From NCBI GenBank assembly GCA_019359715.1, contig JAHHGS010000106.1:1-41862 (forward strand): a stretch of DNA of 41,862 nt, given 5' to 3'. Positions 333-41,178 of the stretch are shown in pieces. Under the pieces are notes generated by a model. That model did not search any database and had not been told where the DNA came from. It saw nothing but the letters and a program-made list of their open reading frames with translations. The position numbers and the translations under genes were made by a program. Source of the DNA: Aphanocapsa sp. GSE-SYN-MK-11-07L (GTDB taxonomy: Bacteria; Cyanobacteriota; Cyanobacteriia; Thermosynechococcales; Thermosynechococcaceae). Position 1 is the stretch's first letter, and each line of letters opens with the position of its first letter.

Positions 333-2129
333 TTAAACAGTCTTCGGTGGCGGGCTAGCCGTCGAAGCAACGTGCAGCTCTTTGAGCTGCTTGGTTTCGA
401 CATCGGAAGGCGCATTGGTTAGCGTGCAGCGGGCTTGCTGGGTTTTGGGGAAGGCGATCGCATCTCGAATCGACTCTTCTCCGGCCAGCAGCATGATCAG
501 GCGATCAATGCCGTAGGCAATCCCGCCGTGGGGGGGCGTGCCATACTCAAAGGCTTCCAGCAAAAAGCCAAATTTATTTTGGGCGGCTTCCGGTGAGAGG
601 CCAATTGTTTCAAATACCTGCTTTTGCATCTCTGGCTGATAAATCCGCAAGCTGCCGCCGCCAACTTCAAACCCGTTGTAGACCAAATCGTAGGCTACTG
701 CCCGCGCCGTCTTCAGATCATTGGCATCATCAGGATGGGGGGCGGTAAATGGGTGATGCAATGCTTCCAAACGCTTTTCATCCGCGTTCCACTCAAACAT
801 CGGGAAGTCGGTAATCCAGAGTAGGTTAATTTGGTCAGGATCAATCAGCCCTAGCTCTCGTCCCAAACACTGCCGCAGCCGATCCAGAGATTTATTGACG
901 ATCGCCGTTGGGCCAGCTCCAAACAGCAGCAAGTCTCCCGGCTTGGCTCCCGTCCGCGTCAGTAATTCTGCTTTGCCTGCTTCCGTTAAGTTGTCTTTGA
1001 TTGCGCCAATCGTGTCAATTTCGCCATCATCGCGAACGCGGATATAGGCCAGACCTTTGGCTCCCCCCTCACAGGCTTCTTTGAACAGATCGCCACCGGG
1101 CTTGATCCGAACATTTGAGATCGCCTCGTTACCGCCGGGGACGGGTAGCACTTTCACCAGCCCACCCGTGGCGACTGCGCCCGAAAAAACCTTAAACCCA
1201 GAGTCTTGCATTAAGTCGGAAACATCGACTAGTTCTAGCCCAAATCGCATATCGGGCTTATCGCTACCAAACCGGCTCATGGCTTCGGCATAGGTCAAAC
1301 GCGGAAACGGACGCGATAGGTCAATGTTTTTGATTTGTTTGAAAATATGGCAGACCAGCCCTTCATTCAGGTCAAGAATTTCCTCCTGGGACAGGAAGCT
1401 CATTTCCATGTCCAGTTGGGTAAACTCCGGCTGCCGATCGGCGCGCAGGTCTTCATCCCGAAAACAGCGGGCAATTTGATAGTAGCGATCGCAGCCCGCC
1501 ACCATCAGCAATTGCTTAAACAACTGGGGTGACTGGGGGAGCGCAAACCATTCGCCCGGATTGACTCGGCTTGGCACCAAGTAGTCTCTGGCTCCTTCTG
1601 GGGTGGAGCGGGTCAGAATTGGCGTTTCTACTTCTAAGAAACCTTCTACATCTTCCAAGTAGCGGCGGATAGTTTTGATCACCTGATGGCGTAATTGCAG
1701 GTTGCGGGTCATCCGCTCCCGTCGCAGATCCAAATAGCGATACTTGAGCCGCAGGTCTTCCCGCACTGATTCGGTGTCGCTGACCGAGACCTGAAAGGGC
1801 AACTGCTTGCGAACGGCATTTAACAGCTCAATCTGATCGGCATAAATTTCCACCTCGCCCGTCGGCAAGCGGGGATTCAAAGAATCTTCAGGTCGGCGGG
1901 TAACTCGCCCGGTCACTTTCACCACGTACTCGTTGCGGAGATGGTCAGCCTGGGGGTAAGAGTCCGGCGTCCGTTCTGGATCGCTGACAATTTGGACGAT
2001 TCCGCTGCGATCGCGCAAGTCCAAGAAAATCACCCCACCATGATCCCGCCGCCGATCCACCCAGCCAAACAGAGTTACCGTTTCGCCCACCTGATCTGCC
2101 CGCAGATCGCCACAATAGTCAGTACGCAT
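333..2129 (-). CDS. aspS: Aspartyl-tRNA synthetase
   Basis: Cytoplasmic class II aminoacyl-tRNA synthetase charging tRNA-Asp (and tRNA-Asn if the enzyme is non-discriminating). The N-terminal OB-fold anticodon-binding domain is visible ([19 protein letters not shown]). Next come the class II motif 2 region ([19 protein letters not shown]), the bacterial GAD insertion, and motif 3 near the C-terminus ([20 protein letters not shown]). The frame is open back to 2264, but I choose the ATG at 2127-2129. The family begins with MRT-Y and about 598 aa is the usual bacterial length, while the upstream extension would be translated through a 21-bp hairpin and has no family resemblance. No clear Shine-Dalgarno is visible. 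It is monocistronic and transcribed away from the Uma2 gene. Confidence 0.97.
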
Positions 2130-28308: not shown

Positions 28309-28728
28309 CTACTTGAGTAAACGAACAAACCCTGCCTGCTCAAAATGACGATCAGTTGTCAGAGCACTCTGAATTCCTAAATGCTGCATCACAATAAAAG
28401 ACGTGCAGTCAACCAGTGACCAAGGTTTATCAGGTCTAGCTTTGCAGAGTTCCCACGCTAATTGATCGATTTCTGGAGTAACGTGAATAAGCTGCACGAA
28501 AGAAGCAGTTTTGATCGCATCAACAATTCTAAACAGATGAGGTCTAGGTGTTCCCAACGGGCTGTAAAGCAGAGCAACCAATTCATTCAGGACATAATTG
28601 GTAGTCATAATTGTCTGCTTCTGTTGTCGCGCTTTCTGAAAGATCTCAGCGGCCTGTGAATGATAATTTTCAGTAGAAATATAAAGATTTGCCCAGCCAG
28701 AGGTATCGACAAATAGGCTATTCGTCAC
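28309..28728 (-). CDS. PIN-domain ribonuclease toxin (VapC-like)
   Basis: A 139-aa PIN-domain protein. The four acidic active-site positions are all present: D8 (FVDTSGW), E49 (LNELVALL), D107 (SLVDCTSF) and D126 (TTDRHF). It is predicted to be an Mg-dependent endoribonuclease of a type II toxin-antitoxin module. The start is a GTG at 28728, inside the end of the upstream antitoxin-like gene (11-bp overlap), so expression is translationally coupled to it and likely low. Confidence 0.92.
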   Translation of the reverse strand: MTNSLFVDTSGWANLYISTENYHSQAAEIFQKARQQKQTIMTTNYVLNELVALLYSPLGTPRPHLFRIVDAIKTASFVQLIHVTPEIDQLAWELCKARPDKPWSLVDCTSFIVMQHLGIQSALTTDRHFEQAGFVRLLK

Positions 28729-29572
28729 CCTTTATCTCCAGATAAAAAGATTGCCCAATGTAGCGATCGTGATTTTCTCCTAAATCATGAGTGCCGAGAT
28801 GAAGGCTGCCAATCAGAGGAGTAATTGGGTCGTACTCTGGTTCTTCTGCCAAGGAGTTGATCGCAGGGTTATCATCATCTAGAGAGTTTAGTAGTTTAAT
28901 CAGTAGCTCTTGCAGAGTTGAGTTCTGAAATGCTGCGATCTTGTTGACTCGTTCAAGCAGTTGATTATCAACTGTAAAGCTAATTGCACTCTGGGTGATG
29001 GGATGCTGGTCAGCAATTAATTCTTCTGCTCTAAGTATCCGACCGTATCGCGCAAGACATGCGAAGGCAAGATAGCCAAAAAGTAGTAGCACCATAAACT
29101 GAATGGCTACAATAACTACATATTGTCGGATGTCAGAGCTATCTGGACTGATAAATATCATCAACAACGCTAGAGCAGCGAAAACAATATACCCAATGCC
29201 GTTTAGGCGCTTAGCTCTATTTCTTACTTTAAATTTGTACTCCTTGCGAAAGTCAAATCTATTTAAATCTTCAAGATATTCAACATATTTTTGCGCTTTT
29301 AGGTATCTCTGAATTGATGTTGATGGATTGGGTTGCGCCAGTAAATAGCGAATTCCAGAGATGGTCAAACCATGCAGTCCGTATAGGGCAGAGAAACCCT
29401 TTTCTATCAGCAAAGGATGTGATTTATTACTGTTTTCTATGTCTGCAAGGAATGTCGTTAAAAACTTATAATCTTCACGATGCTTCAATCTTGAAATCTG
29501 GGTATCTTGGAGCTTTAGCAACCATAGTGCGCAGTCATTAACTAAAGCGATTGATTTTACAATGAGTTCCAT
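28718..29572 (-). CDS. Membrane protein with C-terminal RHH antitoxin-like domain
   Basis: A 284-aa protein. The N-terminal helical soluble region (1-120) carries a basic stretch before the membrane (KFKVRNRAKR). Two transmembrane helices follow (about 125-142 and 151-174). Then comes a segment with beta-helix-helix character (about 196-232; ISFTVDNQLLERVNKIAAF, TLQELLIKLLNSL) resembling a ribbon-helix-helix domain. The acidic tail (248-284; DPITPLIGSLHLG, LGENHDRYIG) resembles the toxin-binding tails of cyanobacterial antitoxins. It overlaps the PIN toxin gene by 11 bp, the expected antitoxin position. The start is ATG 29572; an in-frame TTG at 29584 sits on the AGGA. The domain reading is by eye and no described family is recognised. 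Confidence 0.65.
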   Translation of the reverse strand: MELIVKSIALVNDCALWLLKLQDTQISRLKHREDYKFLTTFLADIENSNKSHPLLIEKGFSALYGLHGLTISGIRYLLAQPNPSTSIQRYLKAQKYVEYLEDLNRFDFRKEYKFKVRNRAKRLNGIGYIVFAALALLMIFISPDSSDIRQYVVIVAIQFMVLLLFGYLAFACLARYGRILRAEELIADQHPITQSAISFTVDNQLLERVNKIAAFQNSTLQELLIKLLNSLDDDNPAINSLAEEPEYDPITPLIGSLHLGTHDLGENHDRYIGQSFYLEIKGDE

Positions 29573-31252: not shown

Positions 31253-34200
31253 ATGCGCTACCGAACTTGGCTGGTCGGCTGTTGCCGTTTATCTGCTTGT
31301 GGGCTGTTAGGAACTTTAGGGGCGATCGCCATTGCTCCGGCTGTGTTGGCTCAGCCCAGCAATATTGTCCCAGACAATACGTTAGGCACTAACAACTCGA
31401 TCGTTGTGCCCAACGCGGGGGGACTTCGCCTAGAACTGATCGACGGTGGTGCTCAGCGGGGCGGCAACGTTTTCCACAGTTTTCAAGAATTCAACATCAG
31501 CAATGGGCGCGCCGCTTACTTTAACCAGCCCCAAGGGGTGATTAACATCCTTTCACGAGTGACAGGCACAAACCCCTCCCAAATTTTGGGCACCTTAGGA
31601 GTGGTTGGTTCTGCCAATTTGTTTTTTATTAACCCGAATGGAATTATCTTTGGCCCCAACGCCAGCCTGGATGTGGGCGGAGCCTTTGTGGCCAGTACCG
31701 CTAACGCAATTCGGCTTGGCCCGAATGGGCTGTTTAGCGCCTCTGATCCGGCCAGCAGCAACTTACTCAATATTCAGCCCTCGGCTTTATTTTTCAACGC
31801 TCTCGGTCAGCCCAAGCCGATCATCAATCAGTCCACTGCCACCAGTAGCGCTTTGGGAGGCTTCCTCAATGGCAACCCCCAACGCAGCATTACCGGACTT
31901 CAGGTTTTGGATGGTCAATCTTTGCTGCTAGTGGGTGGGCCAATTAGTATGCCTGGCGGCAAACTCACTGCCTTTGATGGGCGGATAGAAATAGCCGCCA
32001 TTGGGGGGCAAGGCAATGTGGGTTTAATCAGTCAAGGTCAAACCCTAAGTTTAAGCTTGCCAGCCAATTTGCCAAGAGCAGATATTAATTTCAGTCAAGA
32101 GGGGACTGCCGAGGTCAGCGGTCTGGGGGTTGGCAATATCAGTCTCTATGCCAATAACTTCACTGCGACGGGAGGCGGTGGTTTGGGGTCTAGGATTAAT
32201 GTGGACGGAGATTCAATCATTACCCCTGGACTGATTCGGGTAGATGTTACCAATGCTCTCACCCTAGATGGAGGCAGTGGAATTGCCAGCACTGCCAGTG
32301 CCAATAGCCTGCCTGGAACGAAGGCCACCAATATTGTTATCGATGCGGGCAGCGTGACATTGACAAACCTCGGTTTTATTGGTTCTCTCTCCGGTTTTAC
32401 TGACACTGATCGCCAGTATCGAGGTGATGCTGGAGATGTCTTCATTCGTGCCAGAGAAGAAATTCTACTTGACAACGGAATTATTTTCAGTGGAGTCTTT
32501 AGCAATGGAATTGGCAATGGCGGCAATATTTTCTTGCAGGGGCGATCGCTGACTGTCCAAAATGGGGGAGGCATTTCCGCTCAAACGGACGGTCAAGGTA
32601 ATGCTGGCAGCATCAAAGTGGAAGTCACTGCTGATATCACGGTCAAGAATCGCTCTCTAATTGAAGCTGCGACCTCGACAGCAGGCAAGTCTGGCAGCAT
32701 CGATTTACTGGCGGGAGGAGATATTTCCCTGGATGGGGGATTTATTGCTAACTTGATTATTGATTCTGCGACAGGAAGTGGGAATGACATTACAATCGAG
32801 GCGCGATCGCTATCCCTCGACAACAATGGGATTATAACATCGAGTACATTAGGGCAAGGCAACGCTGGCAATATCAATCTTAATGTCGGAACGCTATCCG
32901 TTGCCAATGATTCAGTTATCGCCTCAAGTACGCTTGGGCAAGGCAATGCGGGCAATGTTAAGATTGGTGCCCTAAGTGATATCACTGTCGCCAATGGAGG
33001 GAAAATTCGCTCTGACACCCAGGGCACGGGCAATGCTGGCAAGATTGACCTGACAGCAGGAGGTAACATTCTGCTCTTAGGGACAGGCGTGTTCGGAACG
33101 ACTGGAATCACAAGTGAGATTAACATTGCTGCCCAGGGGCAGGGAAACAACATTTCAATTAATGCGAAATCGCTGACTTTAACTGATGCGGCTAGCATCA
33201 ATGCCAGCACCAGTGGGATCGGGGATGCTGGTAATATCTTAGCGAATGTGGATGGGGATATCACCTTAACTAATGGCTCATTGATTCAGGCTGCAAGTGT
33301 GGGACAGGGAGATGCTGGCAGCATTAATCTTTCAGCGGGTGGAAATATTGCTATCAGTGGAGCAGATCAAACGCCCAGTGGAATTGCTACTTTTACTTCT
33401 AATACTGCTGTTGGCGACGGTAAAGACATTACGCTCAAAGCGCGCTCCCTGGCGTTGACCAACAATGCACTTGTGGCAGCAAGTACATTCGGGCAAGGCA
33501 ATGCGGGCAATATCAAGATTGACGTTTCAGATGGTATTTCCCTGGTTGGAGCTGGACAAATTCAATCTCTTTCAAGTGGCAGAGGCAATGCTGGCAAGAT
33601 TGATATCAATGCTGGGGGCGATATCCTACTGAATGGAGCCGGCGGCACCAACCTAACCGGCATTAGTAACACAATTAATCCCAATGCGATTGGTGAAGGT
33701 CAAGACATCGTGATCAACGCGCGATCGCTAACGCTGACCAATGGCGCAATCGTATCGGCAAGCACATTTGGGCAAGGCAATGCCGGCAATATCGAAATTG
33801 ACGTTGTAGGGGATGTTGCTCTGGTTGGAGCCGGACAAATTCAGTCTCTCACGGGTGGCAGAGGCAACGCTGGCAAGATTGATATCAATGCTGGCAACAG
33901 GATTAGACTAGAGGGAACTGGCAGGTATGAGACAACTACGATTACTAATGCAATTATTGGGTCTGCGATTGGCGAGGGGAATAATATTACGCTACAAGCC
34001 AATTCGCTGACGATTTCAAATAGCGCGATTGTGGCAGCAAGTACGTTAGGGCAAGGCAGTGCGGGTAATGTCAACATTAATATTTCAGGTGATATTGCTC
34101 TGTCTAGGGGTGGGCAGATTCAGTCAATTACGGGTGGTCAAGGCGATGCTGGCAAGATTGACATTAGTGCCGGCGGCAATATTCTACTGGATGGCACATC

Positions 34201-37135
34201 CGCAGAAAACACGACGGCAATTGGTAACGTCATTGCCGAATCTGGCATCGGCGAAGGTAAAGATCTTTCAATTAATGCCCGCTCATTGACGGTTACAGAA
34301 AATGCCTTTGTCGGAGCAAGCACGCTTGGTCAAGGCAGTGCAGGTAATATCATGATTAACGTCTCAGACGACATCTCTCTGCTGAGGGGGGGGCAAATTC
34401 AGTCCTTTACTAGCGGACAAGGGAATGCTGGCAAGATTGACCTCAATGCCGGCGGCAACATTTTGCTGGAGGGAACCGGTACCCTGGGTACGGCTGGGGT
34501 GAGGAACACAATTGGCTCATCGGCAATTGGTGAGGGCAATGACATTACGATTAGAGGGCGATCGCTGACCTTAACCGATGCGGCTGTTGTGAATGCCAGT
34601 ACCTTTGGCACAGGCAATGCTGGCAATATCAACATTGACGTGACAGAGAGTGTTTCTGCGCTTAGGGGTGGACAAATTTTGTCTTTAACCAGAGGCAACG
34701 GTAATGCCGGGAACATTGATATTACGGCTGGCGGACAGATTCAACTTGTCGGTATTGCCACAGATGGCAGCCTGAGTAAGATCAGCACTGAAATTGGCAC
34801 AGCCGGGATTGGGGATGGCAATGGCATTCGCCTCCAGGCTCAATCCCTGAGTATTGGCAATGGTGGTCTGGTCGTGACGAGTACGAGCGGCATCGGGAGT
34901 GCGGGCAACATTGATATCAGCGTCGATGATGGGATTTCGGTTGCTGATGGGGGCCAAATTCAGGCAGCCACGTATGGACAGGGAGATGCGGGCAGTATTA
35001 GCTTGCTGGCCGGGAATCGAATTAGCGTTGACGGTCAAGATGCGAGTGGTTCTCCTTCGCTGATTACCAACTTGGTCTCAGAGACCAGTGGCGGAGAAGG
35101 GGCTGATATTGAAATCCGAGCCGAGTCTCTCTCCTTGAGTAATGGCGGGATATTGGGAACAACAACCCTGGGGCAAGGCAATGCCGGAAATATTGATGTC
35201 CAGACCACCAATGAAATTTTCTTGGGCGGCAGCTCAGGCATTCTGACATCAACAACTGGGCAGGGAGATGGGGGCAGCATGCGGTTGTTGGCAGGTACAA
35301 ACGTCTTTCTGGGCAATCAGTCGCAATTGACAACCAGCACCAGAGGACAAGGTAATGCCGGTAACTTAGAGGTTCAAACGGGGAATGGAATTTTTGTTAC
35401 GGGTGGTTCCCTAATCCAAGCCGCAACGATTGGTTATGGAGATGGCGGCAACATTAATTTGCAGGCGGGTGGGCAAATTTCTTTAGACGGTAACTCTAGT
35501 CAGATTACCAGCGCAGTTTCACCCAATCCTGATCCTGCTGCCCAGGGGCAGGGAGGCAACATCAGTATCCAGGCTCAAAGCCTGGGTCTGACCAATGGGG
35601 GACTCGTTTCCGCCAATACTGCTGCCAACGGAAATGCAGGCAATATCAATATTTCAACTCAAAATACTGTCGCTCTTAGCGGCGACAGCAGTATTGATAG
35701 CAGTACCGCCGGGATTGGCAATGGCGGAATTATTGATTTGACAACCCGATCGCTCTCCTTAACCGATGGCGGTCAAATTTCGGCGGCGGTTGTGCGAGGG
35801 CAAGATGGGGCGTTAGGAGGTCAAGGTCGAGGCGGCACGATCAGAATTAACGCCGATCAAATTGATATTTCTGGAGTCAGCTTCGCAGGTTCCCCCAGTG
35901 GTCTATTTGCACTCAATCAGATTGGTACGGCCGGCTCAGCGGGGGATATTTTAATTAACGCTAATAGTTTAACGGTTAACGAGGCTGGGGTAATTGCTGC
36001 CGGGACAAATAACCTCGCTCCAGGTGGCAATATTACAATCAATACCACCAATTTTTCTGCCCTCGATGGCGGGCAAGTTGTTACCGCCAGTCAGAGCGGC
36101 GGCAATGCGGGTACAATTCAGCTAAATGCGACGGGTGATCTGATTTTGGCTGGACGAGAAATCGACTTTCAGCAGCGGATTGTTCAACTGCAACAAACCC
36201 AAACTTTGACAAATGTCCAACGACAACAGGACTTAGGGGCAAGCGATCGCCAAGGGTTGAGCGGCTTATTTGCCGGGACTAGCCCCAGCTCGACAGGCAG
36301 CAGCGGCAGCATCCAAGTCAATTCAAATCAGTTGACCCTGCGCGATGGAGCCACAATCACGGTTGATAGTCGCGGGACTGGAGATGGCGGCAACCTAAAT
36401 ATTCAAACGGGCAATCTGCTGCTAAACAATGGGGCCTCACTTAATGCAGCGACAGCAAGCGGGGAAGGCGGCAATATTTCACTCAACGTCGGTAATTTTC
36501 TGCAAATGCGCCAAAACAGCATCATCTCTGCCCAAGCGCAGGGGACTGGCAACGGGGGCAATATCAACATCAGTACTCGCTTTTTAATCGCGGCTCAGAA
36601 TAGTGACATTGTTGCTAACGCCTTTGAAGGCAGAGGTGGCAATATTCAGATCACGACGCAAGGTATTTTTGGGATTCAGGCGCGCGATTTTCTCACTCCT
36701 TTGAGTGATATTAATGCCAGCTCGCAGTTTGGGACTGATGGCGTTGTGCAGATCAATACGACCGTCGATCCGAGCCGAGAGTTGGTCTCGTTGCCCTCCT
36801 TGGTGGTTGATGTCTCTGGGTTAATTGCCCAGGGCTGCCGAGCCGAAACCACCACCGCCAGTCGGTTCGTCGTTACAGGGCGGGGTGGGTTGCCAACCAA
36901 CCCAGGTGACTTACTTACCAATGAACCGGTTTTGAATGATTTGGGTCAGCCGGTTGGGATGTCACCTAGTTCACCAGAGGCAACTCCGCCTGAGCAGAAA
37001 AGTCAAGCCGCACCACCGCCGATTGTGGAGGCCCAAGGCTGGGTGGTTCGCCCTGACGGCAAAATTGTTCTGACAGCCCAAACGGCCGTAGCTCAGCCAA
37101 TTTGGTTTAAAACCCCTGCTTGCGAAGGCAATTGA
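31253..37135 (+). CDS. TpsA-type two-partner-secretion exoprotein (filamentous haemagglutinin N-terminal domain)
   Basis: A 1960-aa predicted surface or secreted beta-helix protein. The signal peptide spans 1-33 (core LLGTLGAIAIAPAV, cleavage after VLA). The TPS domain (about 34-250) has QRGGNVFHSF, NILSRVTG, NLFFINPNGIIFGPNASLDVGG and related signatures needed for recognition by a TpsB pore. The middle is a long repeat array (G-x-GNAGNI, ITLxARSLTLTN units) with a very regular 93-residue period. The C-terminal module (FGIQARDFLTPLSDINASSQFG, LIAQGCRAE, LPTNPGDLL, GWVVRPDGKIVL) is shared with the next gene. No TpsB partner or CHAT-domain gene lies in the window. Likely role: adhesion or aggregation. 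The ATG at 31253 directly precedes the signal peptide. Confidence 0.95.
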   Translation: MRYRTWLVGCCRLSACGLLGTLGAIAIAPAVLAQPSNIVPDNTLGTNNSIVVPNAGGLRLELIDGGAQRGGNVFHSFQEFNISNGRAAYFNQPQGVINILSRVTGTNPSQILGTLGVVGSANLFFINPNGIIFGPNASLDVGGAFVASTANAIRLGPNGLFSASDPASSNLLNIQPSALFFNALGQPKPIINQSTATSSALGGFLNGNPQRSITGLQVLDGQSLLLVGGPISMPGGKLTAFDGRIEIAAIGGQGNVGLISQGQTLSLSLPANLPRADINFSQEGTAEVSGLGVGNISLYANNFTATGGGGLGSRINVDGDSIITPGLIRVDVTNALTLDGGSGIASTASANSLPGTKATNIVIDAGSVTLTNLGFIGSLSGFTDTDRQYRGDAGDVFIRAREEILLDNGIIFSGVFSNGIGNGGNIFLQGRSLTVQNGGGISAQTDGQGNAGSIKVEVTADITVKNRSLIEAATSTAGKSGSIDLLAGGDISLDGGFIANLIIDSATGSGNDITIEARSLSLDNNGIITSSTLGQGNAGNINLNVGTLSVANDSVIASSTLGQGNAGNVKIGALSDITVANGGKIRSDTQGTGNAGKIDLTAGGNILLLGTGVFGTTGITSEINIAAQGQGNNISINAKSLTLTDAASINASTSGIGDAGNILANVDGDITLTNGSLIQAASVGQGDAGSINLSAGGNIAISGADQTPSGIATFTSNTAVGDGKDITLKARSLALTNNALVAASTFGQGNAGNIKIDVSDGISLVGAGQIQSLSSGRGNAGKIDINAGGDILLNGAGGTNLTGISNTINPNAIGEGQDIVINARSLTLTNGAIVSASTFGQGNAGNIEIDVVGDVALVGAGQIQSLTGGRGNAGKIDINAGNRIRLEGTGRYETTTITNAIIGSAIGEGNNITLQANSLTISNSAIVAASTLGQGSAGNVNINISGDIALSRGGQIQSITGGQGDAGKIDISAGGNILLDGTSAENTTAIGNVIAESGIGEGKDLSINARSLTVTENAFVGASTLGQGSAGNIMINVSDDISLLRGGQIQSFTSGQGNAGKIDLNAGGNILLEGTGTLGTAGVRNTIGSSAIGEGNDITIRGRSLTLTDAAVVNASTFGTGNAGNINIDVTESVSALRGGQILSLTRGNGNAGNIDITAGGQIQLVGIATDGSLSKISTEIGTAGIGDGNGIRLQAQSLSIGNGGLVVTSTSGIGSAGNIDISVDDGISVADGGQIQAATYGQGDAGSISLLAGNRISVDGQDASGSPSLITNLVSETSGGEGADIEIRAESLSLSNGGILGTTTLGQGNAGNIDVQTTNEIFLGGSSGILTSTTGQGDGGSMRLLAGTNVFLGNQSQLTTSTRGQGNAGNLEVQTGNGIFVTGGSLIQAATIGYGDGGNINLQAGGQISLDGNSSQITSAVSPNPDPAAQGQGGNISIQAQSLGLTNGGLVSANTAANGNAGNINISTQNTVALSGDSSIDSSTAGIGNGGIIDLTTRSLSLTDGGQISAAVVRGQDGALGGQGRGGTIRINADQIDISGVSFAGSPSGLFALNQIGTAGSAGDILINANSLTVNEAGVIAAGTNNLAPGGNITINTTNFSALDGGQVVTASQSGGNAGTIQLNATGDLILAGREIDFQQRIVQLQQTQTLTNVQRQQDLGASDRQGLSGLFAGTSPSSTGSSGSIQVNSNQLTLRDGATITVDSRGTGDGGNLNIQTGNLLLNNGASLNAATASGEGGNISLNVGNFLQMRQNSIISAQAQGTGNGGNINISTRFLIAAQNSDIVANAFEGRGGNIQITTQGIFGIQARDFLTPLSDINASSQFGTDGVVQINTTVDPSRELVSLPSLVVDVSGLIAQGCRAETTTASRFVVTGRGGLPTNPGDLLTNEPVLNDLGQPVGMSPSSPEATPPEQKSQAAPPPIVEAQGWVVRPDGKIVLTAQTAVAQPIWFKTPACEGN
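33479..34594 (+). repeat. Four 279-bp tandem coding repeats in the first TpsA
   Basis: The segment coding (A/S)AST-x-GQGNAGNI begins at 33479, 33758, 34037, 34316 and 34595, each exactly 279 nt (93 codons) apart. Flanking units deviate: 276 nt before and 282 nt after. Unit content is GNAGKIDI-AGG-ILL, then AIGEG-DI-I-ARSLTLT, then the AST motif. Confidence 0.9.
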
Positions 37136-37227: not shown

Positions 37228-37242
37228 TGTTGTTTGGGGTTT

Positions 37243-40200
37243 ATGGGCGACCAACCTTGGTTTGACTGGTTTTGGGTTGCGGCGACTTTCGGGGCGATCG
37301 CCGTAAGTCAGCCTGCACTAGCCCAACCCAGCCAAATTGTCCCAGACAATACCTTGGGCAGTCGTAGCTCCGTTGTTATCCCCAACGCCGAAGGGCTGCC
37401 GTTGGAACGGCTGGTTGGCGGCGATCAACGGGGGGGAAACCTTTTTCACAGTTTTTTAGAATTCAATGTCAGCAACGGGCGAGCGGCCTACTTCGACCAG
37501 CCCCAAGGGGTGATTAACATTCTCTCTCGCGTCACGGGTAAAAATTCCTCCCAGATTCTGGGCACCTTGGGAGTGATTGGTTCAGCCAATCTGTTTTTTA
37601 TCAACCCAAATGGAATTATCTTTGGCCCCAACGCCAGCTTAGATGTGGGCGGAGCCTTTGTCGCCAGCACCGCCAACGCAATTCGTCTCGGAGAAAATGG
37701 GTTATTTAGCGCTTCCGACCCGGACAGCAGCAATTTACTCAGCATTCAGCCCTCAGCCCTATTTTTTAATGCCTTGGGTCAACCCAAGTCAATCGTTAAC
37801 CAGTCAACCGCTACGAGTAATGTGCTGGGGCAATCTTTGAATGGTGATCCGCAGCGAGCAATCTATGGGCTGCAAGTGCTGGATGGTCAGCCCTTATTGC
37901 TGGTCGGTGGGCCAATTCGTCTGCCAGGTGGAGTTTTGACAGCCTTGGATGGTCGGGTGGAGCTGGCTGCGATCGGTGGGCCGGGTAATGTGGGTTTGAG
38001 CGGTCAAGGTCAAACGCTGCGATTGAGTCTGCCAGCAAATTTGCCCAGAGCAGATATTTCTCTGAGTAATCAAGCTGCGGTATATGTGACAGGTCAAGGA
38101 ACAGGCGCGATCGCCATTGTTGCCGATAACTTGAGCCTGACTCAGGGCAGTTTGCTGTATGCCGGGATTTATAGCGGCGGCACTTCTGCCCCCAGCAGTC
38201 CAGGAGATATTCAAATTAATACGACCCAAAACCTGACCTTAGAAGCTGAGAGCGGCATTTTTAATCCGATCGGCAACAATTTAACCCCCGGAGCCAGGGC
38301 AGGTAACATTTTGATTGATACCGGCAATCTGAAAGTTGTTAACGCTGCCATTGGTTCCTTTACCGAAAGTCTGGGCGACTCAGGTAACGTGATCATCCAA
38401 GCCCAAAATGCAGTCATCCTCAACGGTGGGAGCATTTTTAGCACAGTTGACTCAGGCGGTGTTGGTAATGCAGGTCAGGTTACGATTGCCGCTGACTCTC
38501 TGGCTCTGTCCAATGGTGCGTATCTCAGTTCTAGTACCTTCGGACAGGGCAATGCAGGCAGGATTACAATTCAAATCAGCGATGCGGTCGCATTGGATGG
38601 GGTGAGCGGTGACTATTCAAGCGCGATTTTCAGCACCGTTGAACAAGGGGCAGTGGGCAATGGCGGCAGTATTGATATCACAGCCAAATCTCTGGGGTTG
38701 ACCAACGGGGCATTGCTCAGCGCCAGCACGTGGGGGATAGGCAACGCTGGCAATATCACCCTGCGGGTCGCAGAAGCTGTGGCGTTGGATGGGGTTGGCA
38801 GTAACACGGTGTTTAGCAATATTACAAGCGATGTCAACTTGGGTGCGATCGGGCAGGGAGGCAACATCGACATTGCAGCCAGATCACTGAGCTTGACCAA
38901 TGGAGCGTTTCTCAGCGCCAGCACCTTGGGTACGGGAAACGCCGGTAATATTACTTTGCGGGTCGCAGAAGCTGTGGCGTTGGATGGTGTCAGCGGTAAA
39001 TTTTCCAGTGCGATTTTTAGCACGGTTGAACAAGGTGCAGTCGGGGATGGCGGTAATATCAACATCGCAGCCAAAACCCTGAGCTTGACAAATGGCGCTG
39101 CCTTGACGGTGGATATTTCTGGTCAAGGAAATGCGGGAACGATTAGCCTTGAGGCGACAGATGCGATCGCCATTGATGGAGTGGGCAGCAATCAGGTGGC
39201 CAGTGGCGTATACAGCAGTGTCAGGCCAGCCGGAATCGGTCAGGGGGGCAACATTAATATCACGGCTAAATCGCTGATGATGACCAACGGCGGCAGCTTG
39301 AGAGCGGATACCTTTGGCCACGGCAATGCAGGCAATATTACCCTTCAGGCAACGGCGATCGCCATCAATGGCATTAACGGTATCAACCTGGCAAGTGGCG
39401 CTTTTAGCACGGTTGGAGCAGAGGCAGTTGGCAACGGTGGCAGGATTGATATTTATACTAAGTCTCTAGCATTAACGAATGGAGCCGCCTTGAGTTCTAG
39501 CACCTTTGGCCGGGGCAACGCTGGCAACATTACGATTCAGGCGATGGAGTCCGTCCGGCTGGATGGTACGAGTGCAGGTTTTTCCAGTACGATTTTCAGC
39601 ACGGTTGAACAGGGTGCAGTGGGGAATGGGGGCAACATCAACATCACTGCTAAATCCCTGAGTTTGACGAATGGAGCTGCCCTGGCAGGTAATACCTTTG
39701 CCAATGGCAGCGCCGGGAACATCTTTGTCCAGGCCAGCGATGCTGTTCGGTTGGATGGAGTAGGACAGAATGGCGTTTCAAGCGCCATCTTCAGCGATGT
39801 CAGCTCAGAGGCAGTGGGCAATGGCGGTAACATCAACATCACAGCCAAATCTCTGAGCCTAACCAACGGCGCTGCCTTAAGAGCAGATACCTTTGGGCAA
39901 GGCAATGCGGGCAATATCTTGATTCAGACAACCGATGCAGTTTGGCTAGAGGGAGTGGGCAGCAATGGCGTTTCGAGTCGCCTGCTGACCCAAGCGGAGC
40001 CAGGTTCGATCGGCAGGGGGGGAAACATCACGATCGCAACAGGTGATTTTCAGGTATCAAAGGGAGCGGTGGTGAATGCTCAAACCTCGAATTCAGACCC
40101 TGGCGGCAATATCACGATCACTGCCAAGACTTTTGCCGCCCTTGAAGGCGGACAGTTGCTAACGACAACCTCCAGCAGCGGTCAAGCTGGTAGTATTAAT

Positions 40201-41178
40201 TTGCAGATTTCAGATCATCTGACTTTAGCCGGGAGCGATCGCACATTTCAGGCTCGACTGGCTCAGTATGGGCCGATGATTGTCACCAATCAAGGAGCCG
40301 CCAGCGGTCTGTTTGCGAACACTGCCCCTGGCTCTAGCGGTGCTGGGGGTAGTATTGTGATTGACCCTGATCAGATGATCCTGCGGGATGGAGCAACAAT
40401 TACGGTTGACAGTCGCGGCACCGGCAATGCTGGCAATCTGAGCATTCAGGCAGGCAATCTGCTGCTAGACAATGGTGCCTCACTCAGCGCGGCCACGGCC
40501 AGCGGGGAAGGCGGTAATATTTGGCTGAATGTGGCTAACTTGCTGCAAATGCGCCAGAACAGCCTGATCTCGGCCGAAGCGCAGGGCACCGGCAACGGTG
40601 GCAATATTGACCTGAACACCCGCTTTTTAGTAGCGATCGGAAACAGTGACATTGTTGCCAATGCCTTTGAGGGCAGAGGGGGCAGTATTCAGATCACTGC
40701 CCAAGGGATTTTTGGGATTCAGGCGCGTGATTTTCTGACCCCCTTGAGCGATATTAACGCTAGCTCCCAGTTTGGGATTGATGGCGTTGTGCAGGTGAAC
40801 ACAACAGTTGACCCCAGTAGCGGGCTGACAGTGCTGCCCTCGCAAGTGATTGATGCCTCTAGTTTAATTGCCCAAGGCTGTCGGGCAGTGGGCAGTGTCA
40901 CCAGTAAGCTGGTGGTGTCAGGACGAGATGGCTTACCAACGAACCCTGGTGATTTGCTAAGCACTGAGCTAGTCTTGCTTGATTTGGGTCAACCAGAGGT
41001 TTCACTTTCTCTCACATATCGATCCAAGGCGAACTATCCTCAGCCTAAGAATCAAGCTGAGCCAATCGTGGAAGCCGAAAGTTGGGTTATTCGTCCTGAC
41101 GGTAAAGTAGTTTTGACCGCCCAGAATGGTCAGGCTCAGCCGACTTGGTTTATCCCCCTACTCTGTCCTCCCGATTGA
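37243..41178 (+). CDS. Second TpsA-type two-partner-secretion exoprotein
   Basis: An about 1311-aa paralogue of the preceding gene, 107 bp downstream. The signal peptide is atypical: acidic and aromatic at the start (MGDQPWFDWFWV) with no basic n-region, then AATFGAIAVSQPALA (cleavage after A27). The TPS domain (about 28-245) is very close to the first copy, including long nearly identical stretches from NILSRVTG to FGPNASLDVGG. The centre is a repeat array of 64/65 residues (AVALDGV, FSTVEQGAVGNGGNI, AKSLSLTNGA). The C-terminal module with FLTPLSDINASSQFG, LIAQGCRAV and LPTNPGDLL matches the first copy. The start is uncertain: TTG 37234 is also in frame. Likely secreted by the same, unlinked TpsB pore. 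Confidence 0.93.
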   Translation: MGDQPWFDWFWVAATFGAIAVSQPALAQPSQIVPDNTLGSRSSVVIPNAEGLPLERLVGGDQRGGNLFHSFLEFNVSNGRAAYFDQPQGVINILSRVTGKNSSQILGTLGVIGSANLFFINPNGIIFGPNASLDVGGAFVASTANAIRLGENGLFSASDPDSSNLLSIQPSALFFNALGQPKSIVNQSTATSNVLGQSLNGDPQRAIYGLQVLDGQPLLLVGGPIRLPGGVLTALDGRVELAAIGGPGNVGLSGQGQTLRLSLPANLPRADISLSNQAAVYVTGQGTGAIAIVADNLSLTQGSLLYAGIYSGGTSAPSSPGDIQINTTQNLTLEAESGIFNPIGNNLTPGARAGNILIDTGNLKVVNAAIGSFTESLGDSGNVIIQAQNAVILNGGSIFSTVDSGGVGNAGQVTIAADSLALSNGAYLSSSTFGQGNAGRITIQISDAVALDGVSGDYSSAIFSTVEQGAVGNGGSIDITAKSLGLTNGALLSASTWGIGNAGNITLRVAEAVALDGVGSNTVFSNITSDVNLGAIGQGGNIDIAARSLSLTNGAFLSASTLGTGNAGNITLRVAEAVALDGVSGKFSSAIFSTVEQGAVGDGGNINIAAKTLSLTNGAALTVDISGQGNAGTISLEATDAIAIDGVGSNQVASGVYSSVRPAGIGQGGNINITAKSLMMTNGGSLRADTFGHGNAGNITLQATAIAINGINGINLASGAFSTVGAEAVGNGGRIDIYTKSLALTNGAALSSSTFGRGNAGNITIQAMESVRLDGTSAGFSSTIFSTVEQGAVGNGGNINITAKSLSLTNGAALAGNTFANGSAGNIFVQASDAVRLDGVGQNGVSSAIFSDVSSEAVGNGGNINITAKSLSLTNGAALRADTFGQGNAGNILIQTTDAVWLEGVGSNGVSSRLLTQAEPGSIGRGGNITIATGDFQVSKGAVVNAQTSNSDPGGNITITAKTFAALEGGQLLTTTSSSGQAGSINLQISDHLTLAGSDRTFQARLAQYGPMIVTNQGAASGLFANTAPGSSGAGGSIVIDPDQMILRDGATITVDSRGTGNAGNLSIQAGNLLLDNGASLSAATASGEGGNIWLNVANLLQMRQNSLISAEAQGTGNGGNIDLNTRFLVAIGNSDIVANAFEGRGGSIQITAQGIFGIQARDFLTPLSDINASSQFGIDGVVQVNTTVDPSSGLTVLPSQVIDASSLIAQGCRAVGSVTSKLVVSGRDGLPTNPGDLLSTELVLLDLGQPEVSLSLTYRSKANYPQPKNQAEPIVEAESWVIRPDGKVVLTAQNGQAQPTWFIPLLCPPD
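38533..40080 (+). repeat. 192/195-bp tandem coding repeats in the second TpsA
   Basis: The codon aligned to the S of the ST-F-G-GNAGNI motif falls at 38533, 38725, 38920, 39112, 39307, 39499, 39691 and 39886. The spacings are 192, 195, 192, 195, 192, 192 and 195 nt, giving eight units of 64 or 65 residues. The unit is GNAGNI-L---AVALDGV, then SxIFS-V--GAVGNGGNI-I, then AKSLSLTNGA. Confidence 0.88.

Follow-up and report, generated by a model that had tools for sequence, protein, structure and literature searches.

A putative membrane-tethered VapBC-type antitoxin, apparently arisen by gene fusion, in a cyanobacterial genome

A type II antitoxin is expected to be a small, soluble protein, and its turnover releases the toxin. 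Among the described systems, VapBC20 of M. tuberculosis (PDB 5wzf/5wz4) comprises a four-acid PIN toxin and an antitoxin whose gene comes first and overlaps that of the toxin, and whose product has an RHH-like N-terminal part followed by a toxin-binding-type C-terminal tail. Some toxin-neutralising elements, such as those of PanA (Panacea) and CapRel, are fused to a further domain, and in SUMO-Phd-C the toxin-binding tail of the antitoxin is functional with a foreign N-terminal partner (PMC10440598). As for the membrane, HigX of Caulobacter crescentus is a membrane-associated transcription factor found beside higBA, which works independently of HigBA (PMC13384398). No paper on a membrane antitoxin came up in an exact-phrase literature search, a weak kind of search whose outcome is not proof of absence.

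Herein we describe a locus that shares the above features of VapBC20, the RHH-like part as a candidate only, whereas its antitoxin has a 195-aa domain with two transmembrane (TM) segments in front and lacks a start codon of its own. The locus lies in a stretch of 41,862 nucleotides from Aphanocapsa sp. GSE-SYN-MK-11-07L (contig JAHHGS010000106.1), which was analysed as a whole and is called the window in the following. Its gene order is that of VapBC, with the antitoxin gene directly upstream of the toxin gene, co-directional with it and overlapping it by 11 bp, and the same order is seen at ten other loci. The VapBC norm of a small soluble antitoxin with a DNA-binding N-terminal domain is followed by the stand-alone relatives, but not by the window antitoxin with its 284 aa and two TM segments, which looks built to work like VapB as a fused variant.

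The toxin gene and the fused gene

The coordinates of the two genes and of their parts are given in Table 1. The product of the PIN gene matches the Pfam family PF01850 (E 2e-10), and among solved structures it comes closest to M. tuberculosis VapC20 (E 4.5e-17), with which all four acids (D8, E49, D107 and D126) align. As D8, E49 and D126 are moreover invariant and D107 is nearly so among ten aligned relatives, the four acidic catalytic positions read in the toxin by the initial annotation are confirmed, and the same is true for its GTG start and the 11-bp overlap with the upstream gene. By analogy with VapC20, the target of the toxin would be RNA.

Table 1. Features of the toxin-antitoxin locus in the window
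Feature	Coordinates	Strand	Basis
Fused gene: two-TM membrane protein domain (residues 1-~195) and VapB-type antitoxin (residues ~197-284)	28718..29572	-	ORF, homology, hydropathy
N-terminal domain (residues 1-195): helical part of about 120 residues, followed by TM segments at 123-141 and 152-170 and by a short helix	28988..29572	-	hydropathy, model, plasmid homologues
Junction of the two halves at codons 196-197 (GCA ATT; ATG ATT in the solitary paralogue)	28982..28987	-	DNA alignment
C-terminal antitoxin domain (residues 197-284): RHH-like strand-helix-helix (196-232) and toxin-binding-type tail with conserved DLGENHDRYIGQ motif	28721..28984	-	homology, low-confidence model
PIN-domain toxin, VapC type, 139 aa from a GTG start; overlaps the antitoxin gene by 11 bp	28309..28728	-	Pfam, alignment, VapC20 similarity

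The gene in the antitoxin position of this PIN module runs from an ATG at 29572 to a stop ending at 28718, and both the open frame and its overlap with the PIN gene agree with the 284-aa gene initially annotated there. A TTG 12 nt further upstream, which would give 288 aa, is disfavoured as the start, and the stand-alone homologues align from the ATG. The Kyte-Doolittle hydropathy of the product peaks at 123-141 (2.35) and 152-170 (2.62), close to the TM helices initially placed at 125-142 and 151-174, and the helical N-terminal domain proposed in front of them is likewise recovered, as about 120 helical residues. Weak Pfam hits of the protein to 7tm_7 and VIT1, both below the cut-off and on the hydrophobic part, were discarded, and the AF2 model of the full protein (low confidence, pLDDT 41) is too poor beyond the TM hairpin. 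Upstream of the gene, a search for an operator inverted repeat gave 6-nt pairs only.

The way in which translation can start on this gene merits attention. No ATG, GTG or TTG occurs in frame between residue 161, which is within the second TM helix, and residue 241, and this rules out an internal start from such codons that would give a free antitoxin; the ATT at codon 197 is a possible but very poor internal start. Because of this gap, synthesis should yield the antitoxin solely in a membrane-bound form, barring cleavage; the attachment is thus dictated by the gene itself, with a free form obtained only via proteolysis or from the very poor start. This obligatory attachment is the strongest new point of our analysis.

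Elsewhere in the window, a gene at 31253-37135(+) encodes a repetitive secreted protein of 1960 aa, whose N-terminal region resembles filamentous haemagglutinin by eye, and a 1314-aa ORF at 37234-41178 comes next after it.

Two halves of separate origin

The C-terminal half can be traced in the first place within the same genome, where a stand-alone gene matches residues 196-283 with 59% identity (E 5e-26), and small stand-alone relatives of it are also present in other genomes of the phylum. At ten cyanobacterial loci (L003, L005, L006, L020, L021, L023, L025, L029, L031 and L032) such a stand-alone antitoxin is located directly before a close PIN relative; these PINs are 51-65% identical to that of the window (nine of ten aligned), and the antitoxins are open frames of 78-124 aa, with a TM-like peak in none of them. 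Solitary or broken members of the family are found at L002, L004/L022, L024, L026, L028, L030 and L035, so that a separate C-terminal half occurs mostly, though not always, with a PIN partner. Its assignment to a family of PIN-partner antitoxins is supported by these homologies.

As to the RHH-like segment, the FitA-like_RHH family of Pfam is met in close stand-alone relatives with E 0.0011 and 0.065 and in another search with 0.0077 at best, all of them below the cut-off (the best match has 19.3 bits against a cut-off of 27), and a Pfam match is absent for the window's own segment. A PDB search gave a weak match to the PutA RHH (E 0.98). The AF2 model of residues 195-284 (low confidence, pLDDT 46) has a strand at 196-200 and helices at 203-213 and 220-230. 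With Pfam scores below the cut-off and a model of low confidence, the RHH assignment is weak. The initial reading of the C-terminus as an RHH-like segment plus an antitoxin tail thus holds in one part, namely the antitoxin family match with its ten PIN-paired loci, while the RHH match itself is weak even at its best value. At yet another locus (L027, G253:C3:3941589-3941690), an unrelated N-terminal part precedes the conserved toxin-binding-type tail (DPLLKLIGSISVDIPDLAENHDYYIGQ); since the part in front differs, the tail is exchangeable, and this is apparently a case of domain exchange within the antitoxin family.

The N-terminal half has quite different relatives. For residues 22-189, the matches are hypothetical proteins encoded by stand-alone genes on proteobacterial plasmids, namely those of Klebsiella variicola (NZ_CP044051) and Enterobacter ludwigii (NZ_CP116348) with 31% identity (E 2e-16), as well as that of Cupriavidus oxalaticus (NZ_CP032520; E 3e-11). 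For either half, the similarity far exceeds what chance would give. These unnamed proteins have 202-210 aa, and in full-length alignment they follow the fused protein from its ATG to residue ~197 with 29-30% identity and end there, the similarity taking in both TM segments. Weaker and more distant stand-alone relatives come from an Agarilytica plasmid and from a single genome within the same cyanobacterial family. The N-terminus of the plasmid relatives is also hydrophobic, and for this reason the TM count of the plasmid protein family is less certain; their helical domain, being positively charged, would even so lie in the cytoplasm. SLATT and other named two-TM effector families were considered for this domain, and neither Pfam nor PADLOC gave a match for the fused protein or for three N-domain homologues.

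In the neighbourhoods of the stand-alone N-domain homologues, none has a recognised PIN gene. On the Cupriavidus oxalaticus plasmid (L014, 4911-8367), the homologue adjoins a ThsB-like TIR gene and a KAP-type NTPase (PADLOC PDC-S20), possibly a defence locus; on the Agarilytica plasmid NZ_CP021746 (L049, 705-3402), the distant homologue is in a row with a phosphoribosyltransferase, DprA and a hypothetical gene. These neighbours are hints of conflict islands. On this ground the N-terminal domain might be a membrane effector or sensor drawn from such islands, which responds to envelope or phage damage by releasing the PIN toxin, an explanation also in line with the sensory role proposed for accessory domains of other antitoxins such as Panacea and CapRel (PMC10440598). 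We regard it as quite unlikely, considering that the domain has no PADLOC or SLATT-type Pfam match, that the neighbours vary from locus to locus and that the fusion is seen only once.

The point where the two halves meet can be fixed by the DNA. Aligned with the solitary paralogue, the fused gene becomes similar to it at codon 197 (ATT), immediately 3' of the paralogue's ATG, whose position is occupied by GCA in the fused gene. The fused gene is therefore two genes of separate origin, which exist apart elsewhere, joined exactly at the antitoxin start codon. An artefact of assembly or sequencing could in principle have joined two separate genes, the genome being a draft of one strain (5.1 Mb in 159 contigs); however, the joint keeps the reading frame, coincides exactly with the C-terminal end of the one family and with the start codon of the other, and is placed within a 41.9-kb contig whose flanks both read cleanly, which makes an artefact very improbable. 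Both genes read intact, and their GC content is 39-43% against 51% in the flanking genes, which would fit a recent acquisition as a module. In an empty-site synteny comparison, the flanking genes were not adjacent to each other in short stretches from relatives.

Distribution and meaning of the fusion

The initial annotation had led to the expectation that a genome survey would find the fused gene always upstream of a PIN gene. This was not borne out, for the fusion was found in this genome only. Searches with the N-terminal domain in about 390 cyanobacterial genomes each, at the levels of class and phylum, gave the window copy as the only strong match, and 29 genomes of the order had no fused copy beyond this genome. 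Two contig scans and searches of viral contigs, phages and E. coli genomes gave no N-domain match, the plasmid search gave its stand-alone homologues but no fused copy, and a search with the full protein through genomes, contigs, plasmids and phages found no second fused copy. Without any full-length homologue, the question whether 284-aa homologues commonly lack a PIN partner does not apply; it is the halves that occur apart, the N-terminal one without PIN and the C-terminal one mostly with it. Since the fusion is known from a single genome, there is no evolutionary conservation showing that the combination has been selected.

The solitary paralogue should be considered together with this single occurrence. 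It is located at 1492-1827(-) of L002 (G000:C150:11244-11510) with a tail nearly identical to that of the fused copy, and no PIN gene is present downstream of it. Presumably soluble, it could neutralise the PIN toxin instead of the fused form. At the other end of the same locus there are a RelE-like gene and a small partner ORF.

We hold it to be fairly probable that the locus encodes a membrane-tethered VapBC-type antitoxin which arose by fusion, neutralises the PIN toxin and keeps part of the toxin pool at the membrane. In this explanation, a mobile two-TM gene would have been linked through its 3' end to the antitoxin gene of a VapBC-type type II pair, exactly at the start codon of the latter, and the antitoxin would now be made tethered to the membrane. 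With two TM helices, the two ends of the protein share a side, and the positive charges ahead of the first helix favour the cytoplasm, so that the helical N-terminal domain and the RHH/tail domain would both be on the cytoplasmic face. There the fused antitoxin would bind and silence the PIN ribonuclease, and part of the toxin would thus be at the membrane; in line with VapBC systems in general, the toxin would be set free once the antitoxin is lost. A point against this explanation is that, for an RHH dimer fixed at the membrane, autoregulation of the promoter would probably be poor. Further points against it are the occurrence of the fusion in one genome, the soluble paralogue with its nearly identical tail, the RHH scores below the cut-off and the low confidence of the models.

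It is also possible, though we think it rather less than probable, that the fusion is accidental, i.e. that recombination joined a membrane gene to an antitoxin and the product persists as its antitoxin part works or the paralogue protects the cell, while the membrane part plays no role in toxin control. The stretch is of low GC and island-like, the N-terminal half is mobile and of no assigned function elsewhere, and an orphan antitoxin copy exists in the genome; it is the single occurrence, together with a soluble paralogue in the same cell, that keeps this explanation in play. On the other hand, neither half nor the PIN gene is disrupted, the catalytic and tail motifs being preserved, and a two-TM ORF upstream of a live toxin would be costly if neutralisation were lost.

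The membrane antitoxin is therefore to be judged at different levels. As an architecture it is well supported, and a design as a membrane-gated toxin is possible. Hypothetically, the membrane part might sense a signal or release the toxin, as initially suggested. More specifically, we would rate as unlikely a scheme in which the antitoxin retains the PIN ribonuclease at the cytoplasmic membrane and the timing of toxin release is set by the membrane domain, itself taken from a mobile family with kin beside defence genes.

Comparison with known systems

If the tethered form is real, an obligate membrane antitoxin would test whether localisation and turnover by membrane proteases gate a toxin, and the genome itself offers a control in the form of the solitary soluble paralogue. 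With the stand-alone PIN/antitoxin pairs of cyanobacteria, the locus has in common the PIN subfamily, the antitoxin family and the gene order, whereas the antitoxins of those pairs have 78-124 aa and no TM segment. The unnamed two-TM plasmid proteins of about 200 aa correspond over their full length to residues 1-~195 of the fused protein, but are without an antitoxin domain or an adjacent PIN gene. HigX is similar in being a membrane-associated DNA-binding protein beside a toxin-antitoxin locus, and differs in being separate from the antitoxin. The extra domains of PanA and CapRel are soluble. By comparison with these two, the extra domain of the window antitoxin is unrelated and predicted to be embedded in the membrane.
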